From an uncultured Lachnospiraceae bacterium (GTDB lineage Bacteria; Bacillota; Clostridia; Lachnospirales; Lachnospiraceae): a stretch of DNA of 39,085 nucleotides. The stretch is from contig CAJOME010000003.1 in NCBI GenBank assembly GCA_905235585.1, positions 1 to 39,085 of the forward strand. Reading direction: 5' to 3'. The stretch's first letter is position 1, and each line of letters opens with the position of its first letter. The notes below the pieces were generated by a model, which was given only the letters and a program-made list of their open reading frames with translations, did not search any database and was not told the DNA's origin. The translations under genes were made by a program, and so were the position numbers. This document shows positions 2,463 through 26,883 of the stretch, piece by piece.

Positions 2463-2484
2463 TTCCTGATCCTTTCCGTATTAT

Positions 2485-21025: not shown

Positions 21026-21060
21026 CTTTCCCTCCTGTGTGTGTAATATCATTAGTGTAA

Positions 21061-21250
21061 GCATGTGTGTCAGATATATTTTCCGGCACCCGGCATGCCT
21101 CTTACGAACTAATCGTCACGCATTACTAAGCTCAATGAAAATGTCGATAAATCTCCATTTTCATCTCACCAAGTAATTGCGGACGCTGGATTTCGTTCGA
21201 GGCATAAACGCCTCAAAATGTGCCGTGAAAATATATCTTTCCACACACGC
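21061..21250. repeat. ~190-bp imperfect palindrome (MITE-like) in serC-serA intergenic region
   Basis: Left arm gcatgtgtgtcagatatattttccggcac...atgcctcttacgaac...cgtcacgcattact mirrors the reverse complement of the right arm gcgtgtgtggaaagatatattttcacggcac...atgcctcgaacgaa...cgtccgcaattact; central hairpin atgaaaatg/cattttcat. Confidence 0.75.
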
Positions 21251-21264
21251 AAACCCATTAATTG

Positions 21265-22344
21265 TCAGTTATTCTTCTCAAAGGTATCCATGAACTCGAC
21301 AAGCTTCTTCACGCCCTCTACAGGCATGGCATTGTATATGGATGCTCTCATACCGCCCACTGTCCTGTGACCCTTCAGGTTTACGAAGCCGGCTTTACCT
21401 GCTTCATCAATGAACTTCTTGTTCAGATCGTCGGAATCAGTAACAAACGGCACGTTCATAAGAGAACGGTACTCCGGCACCACCGTGCCCTTAAACATCT
21501 TGGAGGAATCAAGGAAATCATAAAGAACCTTTGCCTTTTCCTCATTTATTTTCTTCATTTCCGTGAGCCCGCCCAGTTTTTTGAGCCATTTGAACACCAG
21601 CCCGCAGACATAGATATTGTAAGCAGGAGGTGTATTGTAAAGTGAGTCATTGTCTGCATGTGTCTTGTATTTAAGCATCGTAGGTGTACCGGGCAATACG
21701 TCCTCCGTGATAAGGTCTTCTCTTATTACCACTATGGTCACACCGGCAGGACCTACATTCTTCTGTACGCCTCCGTATACTATGCCGTATCTGGTCACAT
21801 CCACAGGCTCCGAAAGAAACATGGAGGATACATCGGAAACAAGAGTCTTTCCCTTAGTATTGGGGAGCTCCTTATAACGTGTACCATATATCGTATTGTT
21901 CTGGCAGATGTATACATAGTCAGCGTTGTCGCTTATCGGAAGATCCGATACATCCGGGATATAGGTAAAGGTCTTGTCCTCGGAGGAAGCTATCTTATTG
22001 GCAGTACCGTAATTACCGGCCTCCTGCCATGCTTTTTTCGCCCACTGTCCGGTGACTATATAGTCAGCGACCTTATTCTTCATCAGGTTCATTGGGATCA
22101 TTGCAAACTGCGTGGATGCACCGCCCTGAAGAAACAGTACCTTATAGTTGTCAGGCACCCCTGCGAGCTCTCTGAAATCAGCCTCTGCCGTCTTGATGAT
22201 CTCATCATAGACCTTGGATCTGTGTGACATCTCCATGACAGACTGACCTGATCCGTTGTAATCAAGCATCTGGTCTCGTGCCTCTTCAAGTACCTCTACA
22301 GGCAGCATACTTGGTCCGGCTGAAAAATTGTAAACTCTGCTCAT
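21265..22344 (-). CDS. serC: Phosphoserine aminotransferase
   Basis: 359 aa; RVYNFSAGPSMLPVEVLEEA, FLQGGASTQFAMIPMNL, YGGVQKNVGPAGVT. Confidence 0.96.
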   Translation of the reverse strand: MSRVYNFSAGPSMLPVEVLEEARDQMLDYNGSGQSVMEMSHRSKVYDEIIKTAEADFRELAGVPDNYKVLFLQGGASTQFAMIPMNLMKNKVADYIVTGQWAKKAWQEAGNYGTANKIASSEDKTFTYIPDVSDLPISDNADYVYICQNNTIYGTRYKELPNTKGKTLVSDVSSMFLSEPVDVTRYGIVYGGVQKNVGPAGVTIVVIREDLITEDVLPGTPTMLKYKTHADNDSLYNTPPAYNIYVCGLVFKWLKKLGGLTEMKKINEEKAKVLYDFLDSSKMFKGTVVPEYRSLMNVPFVTDSDDLNKKFIDEAGKAGFVNLKGHRTVGGMRASIYNAMPVEGVKKLVEFMDTFEKNN

Positions 22345-25782: not shown

Positions 25783-25800
25783 TGCTCTTCTCCTCCCTAA

Positions 25801-26883
25801 TTACAAGCGCTGTGTTACAGCATCACCCATTCCGCTGGTGGATACGCATTCGCATCCGTCTGACATTATATCTCCCGTGCGTATGCCGTCTGCCAGTGTA
25901 CGTTTCACGGCATTCTCCACTGCATCCGCGGCATTATCCTGCTCCAGACTGTAACGAAGCATCATAGCGGCAGAAAGGATAGTTGCAAGAGGGTTTGCTA
26001 TATTCTTCCCGGCTATATCCGGCGCAGATCCGCCTGATGGTTCATACAGCCCGAATTTCGTATCGTTGAGGGAAGCACTGGGAAGCATCCCTATTGAACC
26101 CGTGATCATGGCTGCTTCGTCGGAAAGGATGTCTCCGAACATATTCTCGGTCAGGACGACATCAAACTGAGAGGGCTCCTTAACAAGCTGCATGGCGCAG
26201 TTGTCCACGAGCATGGTGTCAAACGTGATATCAGGATAGTCATTAGCAACCTCTGATGTAACGCTTCGCCACAGTCTTGAAGAATCAAGCACGTTCGCCT
26301 TATCTACAAGAGTAACTTTCTTCCTCCTTTTTCCTGCGATATCAAATGCCTTTACTGCGGCTCTTCTTATCTCATCCTCATTATAAGAAAGGGTATCCAC
26401 AGCAGTCATCACTCCGTTTAGAGGCTTGGTATATCTTTCACCGAAATAAAGACCGCCGGTCAGTTCTCTGACCATCATGATATCAAAGCCCTTCTCCGCA
26501 GCGGTCTCTGAAAGCGGACATGCAGCCTTAAGCTCAGGGTAAAGTACGGACGGTCTGAGGTTTGCAAACAGATTCAGAGCCTTTCTGATCCCCAAAAGAC
26601 CGGCCTCGGGTCGCTTCGAGGGCTCCAGCCTGTACCATGGAGATGTCTTCGCGTCACCGCCTATAGAGCCCATAAGCACCGCATCGGACGCCACGGCGTC
26701 AGCTACAGCCTCATCAGTGAGCGGCACACCGTGTTTATCTATGGAGCATCCGCCCATATCTATGTCGGTATAGTGTAAGACAAATCCATATCTTCCCGAT
26801 ACGGCATCAAGGATCTTTACCGCTTCATTTACGATCTCCGGTCCTATCCCGTCTCCTCTTATGACTCCGATCTTATAGTCCAT
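25801..26883 (-). CDS. leuB: 3-isopropylmalate dehydrogenase
   Basis: MDYKIGVIRGDGIGPEIVNEAVKIL, MMVRELTGGLYFGERY, EPSGGSAPDIAGKNIANPLATILSAAMMLRYS; ATG at 26883 after GGAGGAAATGC. Confidence 0.95.
   Translation of the reverse strand: MDYKIGVIRGDGIGPEIVNEAVKILDAVSGRYGFVLHYTDIDMGGCSIDKHGVPLTDEAVADAVASDAVLMGSIGGDAKTSPWYRLEPSKRPEAGLLGIRKALNLFANLRPSVLYPELKAACPLSETAAEKGFDIMMVRELTGGLYFGERYTKPLNGVMTAVDTLSYNEDEIRRAAVKAFDIAGKRRKKVTLVDKANVLDSSRLWRSVTSEVANDYPDITFDTMLVDNCAMQLVKEPSQFDVVLTENMFGDILSDEAAMITGSIGMLPSASLNDTKFGLYEPSGGSAPDIAGKNIANPLATILSAAMMLRYSLEQDNAADAVENAVKRTLADGIRTGDIMSDGCECVSTSGMGDAVTQRL

Follow-up and report, generated by a model that had tools for sequence, protein, structure and literature searches.

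A giant hairpin between serC and serA as a probable member of a dispersed, non-coding repeat family of Lachnospiraceae

The palindrome between serC and serA in the window (the whole 39,085-nucleotide stretch of DNA analysed here) probably represents one copy in a family of giant non-coding hairpins, about 190-280 nt long, that are dispersed, restricted to Lachnospiraceae and not reported before, and that are to be read together as REP/MITE-like non-autonomous mobile palindromes. Both the status of these hairpins as a family and their mobility are well supported. The family shares a core with conserved loops, and its outer arms vary between copies while remaining complementary within each one.

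The hairpin between serC and serA

Both genes lie on the minus strand, and a 239-nt gap separates the serC stop (21265) from the serA start (21025). The first-pass annotation had described this gap as holding a long palindrome that encodes no obvious protein and has no U-tract. The sequence and the folds confirm reverse-complement arms with small indels at 21061-21250 around a central 9-bp stem, and no credible ORF or U-tract was found in the palindrome sequence. Weak pairing extends slightly beyond the main stem, to about 21048-21262. The features of the locus are as follows, with R1 and R2 denoting the covariance models described below.

21265..22344, minus strand: serC, aminotransferase class V (Pfam); the hairpin starts a few nt past its stop codon
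19856..21025, minus strand: serA, D-isomer 2-hydroxyacid dehydrogenase (Pfam); ATG at 21025-21023, GGAGG just upstream
21048..21262, no strand assigned: whole hairpin element including the weakly paired foot (fold, z -12; missing from the serC-serA loci of relatives)
21061-21250, no strand assigned: main stem of the hairpin (fold)
21090..21216, plus strand: family core, 'core-plus' orientation (R1 134 bits, R2 95 bits)
21061..21089, no strand assigned: left outer arm, private to the window copy (sequence comparison with other copies)
21217..21250, no strand assigned: right outer arm, complement of the left arm (sequence and fold)
21144..21155, plus strand: conserved apical loop TCGATAAATCTC (minus strand GAGATTTATCGA), near invariant in alignment A1
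21109..21113, plus strand: conserved internal-loop strand CTAAT, opposite CTGGAT; invariant or near invariant across genera
21186..21191, plus strand: conserved internal-loop strand CTGGAT, opposite CTAAT; conserved in the alignments

The minus-strand RNA folds at -101 kcal/mol, where shuffled sequences average -52 (z -12), a stability reached by 0 of 200 shuffles, and the DNA fold of 21041-21270 gives -43.8 kcal/mol (z -7.8). In the window, core-minus is the sense strand of serC-serA. Judging from this position, a role of the hairpin in RNA processing or stability is plausible; when co-transcribed, it would probably act as a processing or mRNA-stability element that separates serC from serA.

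In the nearest relative by SerA (L035, 97% identical), the serC stop is separated from the serA start by 17 nt and the hairpin is absent, as it is from 30 of the 30 related serC-serA loci listed; the window copy is therefore a derived, recent insertion. A scan of 80 serA loci with R2 likewise returned no copy at the window's serC-serA site. The pair L040/L122 provides a second comparison of an unoccupied with an occupied site. Neither exact ends nor a target-site duplication could be read at the comparable sites, whose flanks are too diverged. Inverted target duplication was considered as the source of the private arms and rejected, neither arm being present at the unoccupied L035 or L040 sites.

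Distribution and anatomy of the family

The first-pass annotation had held that a single-copy palindrome, conserved only as ordinary intergenic sequence, would speak against a mobile or transcribed element. The palindrome is indeed single-copy in its own genome (89% complete), but the description as ordinary intergenic sequence fails. BLAST found dispersed copies in sister species, about 11 each in G021 and G023 and about 9 in G025. Of 48 genomes of the genus, 13 match R1, a covariance model built from 16 cores, which also finds the hairpin in another genus. With the broader R2 (20 sequences, three genera), matches were obtained in 29 of 397 sampled Lachnospiraceae genomes, covering 26 genera, and among 391 Clostridia no genome outside Lachnospiraceae matched. 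Copy numbers from these scans are lower bounds, because no more than 8 candidates were scored per genome. No Rfam 15 family reaches its gathering score, the sub-threshold matches being to plant and animal miRNA models only, and literature searches on Lachnospiraceae and Butyrivibrio yielded nothing specific to this repeat. Carriage of the hairpin by a phage or plasmid was rejected, as no match was found.

Certain unpaired features of the core are conserved in every copy: CTAA opposite TGGAT, and a UC/UC internal loop that reads GA/GA on the opposite strand. The apical TCGATAAATCTC is conserved in the window's genus. The outer arms comprise about 20-55 paired bases, with a GGACG foot conserved before the arm in most genera. 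The GTGTGT-like ends pointed out in the first-pass annotation are present in the window copy but are not a family trait, the outer arms of other copies being different. Central hairpins are exchangeable modules, and three core types recur in genus g126.

Several variants were also observed. A shorter, high-copy relative with core type C and short AAGCT...AGCTT feet coexists with the giant hairpins in G172 and G463 (e.g. the left flank of L232), with >35 matches in the two together. One arm is swapped for three or four other hairpins joined into a composite at L121, L123 and L124 (G023), L217 (G024), L220 (G005) and L221 (G021); these composite arms contain GAACGTCCAGTGGACGTT, GGTGCG..CACC and CAGACACGCATGGCGTGTCT and constitute a second dispersed mosaic repeat. 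At L127 and L131 (G025), two or three tandem 5' arm segments (CTCGGGATGCAATAT...) precede the hairpin and resemble slippage or incomplete copying. The single hairpin of L195 in G172 corresponds to three tandem hairpins in G463 (L196/L222/L223), about 280-295 bp apart.

Placement is intergenic for 71 of the 71 copies tabulated in the first set. Flanking gene pairs are mostly co-directional and divergent pairs are rarest; a strong 3'-UTR orientation bias, present in this first set, was dropped because it is weak in the larger set (++ 32, -- 22). The same operon gaps are hit repeatedly in different species: leuB-ilvD carries hairpins of opposite orientation in G021 and G023, the gap that separates the DUF1015 gene from glgB is occupied in G018 and G023, and the gap matching window 2463-2484 is occupied in G021 and G022 and empty in the window. 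Another operon gap of the window, 25783-25852, is empty here and holds a family hairpin in a sister species. Most hairpin sites of g126 are common to two species, and recent movement there is therefore rare. The G463 site of L227 was considered as an empty site and rejected as such, since it is a collapsed hairpin; deletion, therefore, also removes copies.

Arm co-evolution, strand bias and competing readings

Across 16 aligned cores, 60 double changes and 0 one-sided changes were counted. The covariation score was reached by 0 of 500 shuffles, and sliding the partner abolishes the covariation. Arm changes at common sites are likewise compensated, in 6 of 7 changed pairs for L237/L239 and 9 of 11 for L225/L236. 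At sites common to two species of one genus, the same arms may carry different cores (L199/L201, L231/L238, L198/L229), and in G025 (C153/C136) the core is inverted relative to shared flanks. In the window copy, the strand carrying the end motif is the opposite of the usual one, which corresponds to an inverted core and rests on a modest 9/12 motif match. At L198, L228, L229 and L234, the G172 and G463 flanks are joined differently with breakpoints at the hairpins, which suggests recombination between hairpin copies; L228, at a chromosomal rearrangement, resembles a chimera of two copies.

Template switching is known to make the arms of inverted repeats alike and to invert their spacers (PMC8604942). 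It is also known to yield compensatory hairpin changes, and has been proposed to maintain RNA hairpins (PMC8794818). Those cases, described for rRNA genes and yeast coding repeats, share with the present one compensatory changes of several bases, homogenised arms and inverted spacers, whereas here the hairpin is a dispersed bacterial element. Inversion or swapping of the core within fixed arms fits template switching between inverted repeats, as expected. Template switching between the arms during replication would keep them alike and occasionally invert the core, and ectopic exchange between copies may swap cores.

An A.C mismatch on one strand is a G.T (or G.U) on the other. On the core-plus strand, in-stem A.C:G.T mismatches stand at 107:24 in the raw count and 70:19 (about 3.6 to 1) after removing repeated local contexts, and at 21:6 in 22 copies from the family-wide scan; the sampled copies are not independent, so no exact p-value is attached to the bias. 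The A.C excess holds in both orientations of the neighbouring genes, and transcription-linked mutation is therefore no explanation. As A.C on core-plus is G.T/G.U on core-minus, core-minus is the strand tolerated for folding, and its folding appears to be selected. The bias points to selection on one folded strand whatever the direction of the neighbouring gene, so the hairpin is not just a 3'-UTR device that works by read-through. Selection on core-minus may act on single-stranded DNA in transposition, bound by a putative mobilising enzyme, or on an RNA of the element, either form being compatible with it.

A bolder reading, less likely than not, would place the hairpins in a new class of their own among mobile structured nucleic acids. 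This would be a family-wide element in which a single folded strand (RNA or ssDNA) is functional and a conserved looped core sits within a locus-private 'barcode' stem, whose two arms are rewritten simultaneously through template switching.

It is conceivable, if doubtful, that the hairpins instead make up a family of structured non-coding RNAs that have a function of their own and are produced from the core-minus strand, with dispersal as a by-product and pairing kept by RNA selection. The conserved internal and apical loops, the GA/GA tandem mismatches on the minus strand, the excess of G.U wobbles there and the strong covariation all favour such an RNA. However, the independence of the bias from transcription direction would require an own promoter in most contexts, and none was seen; in addition, the central hairpins are exchangeable, two remnants (L138 and the G463 counterpart of L227) have no centre at all, and the arms are free to change completely.

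A pure DNA-level quasipalindrome, in which folding is unselected and template switching alone keeps the arms alike, is improbable and already disfavoured. It would account for the lack of one-sided changes in core stems, the compensated arm changes at common sites and the core inversion, but template switching alone should remove the conserved asymmetric loops as well, and it predicts A.C and G.T mismatches in equal numbers rather than at about 3.6 to 1.

We also consider it unlikely that the hairpins are REP/REPIN-type elements mobilised by a Y1 (RAYT/IS200) transposase that acts on a single folded strand of DNA. The GGACG foot in most genera, the palindrome of free sequence, strand-specific folding and intergenic placement fit such elements; the size (190-280 nt against 20-40) and a foot other than GTAG do not. 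Nor does the distribution of Y1, the only transposase searched by family: Y1_Tnp genes are absent from three multi-copy carriers (G021, G128, G434) and present in several non-carriers. A hairpin lies near 1 of 30 Y1 loci (L274, G097:C89, about 1.3 kb from an IS200-type Y1 gene). On the grounds of carriers without Y1 and this single neighbouring locus, Y1 transposase was rejected as an obligatory partner. The recurrent neighbours of the hairpins are ordinary genes, with no transposase or partner-like gene among them.

An ordinary intrinsic terminator or a chance palindrome has a negligible probability: the hairpin does lie directly past a stop codon, but it sits inside an operon, folds with a z of -12 and does not show the short GC stem plus U-tract of a terminator, and dispersed homologues across genera exclude both.

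Relation to known repeats and significance

Copies of bacterial MITEs (ERIC, NEMIS/Correia, RUP, YPAL, Bcr1) have terminal repeats of 15-30 bp in common. The family resembles them in its length (70-300 bp for MITEs), its lack of coding capacity and, as is often so for MITEs, probable co-transcription with neighbours; it is short, non-coding and dispersed in several copies (in relatives), and has unoccupied sites in relatives. The MITE-type reading of the first-pass annotation therefore stands as a non-autonomous dispersed element, but strict MITE status is unsupported: the terminal arms differ by copy, no target duplication is readable in the diverged flanks, and no autonomous partner was found among the recurrent neighbours or the Y1 transposases. 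Because the terminal repeats are not common to the copies, the hairpin is not an ordinary MITE.

REPs are defined by a foot and a variable palindrome (PMC3686654). The GTAG- or CGTC-tagged REP/REPIN/BIME elements (PMC3733652, PMC3686654) are, like the hairpins, dispersed intergenic palindromes with a conserved foot and a free stem, often located after stop codons. At 190-280 nt, the hairpins are about 7 times longer than REPs (20-40) and depart from the GTAG-type foot with a 20-40 bp palindrome; unlike REP/REPIN, they have a conserved interrupted core, locus-private arms, Lachnospiraceae hosts and no required Y1 partner. CGTC REPs carry CGTC 5' and CCA 3', while the family has GGACG (reverse complement CGTCC) at the core-plus 5' foot. 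The family thus works like REP/MITE elements yet lacks defining features of both.

RNA structure is conventionally proved by compensatory change. The hairpins provide a large natural set, rich in double changes and free of one-sided ones in the aligned core stems, in which the wobble bias separates strand-level selection from DNA-level template switching. As a test case, they bear on how hairpin repeats of bacteria spread and keep their symmetry. For the Lachnospiraceae, an important gut and rumen family, they add an abundant repeat family that affects operon structure (serC-serA, leuB-ilvD, two topoisomerase subunit genes) as well as assembly breaks and rearrangements.
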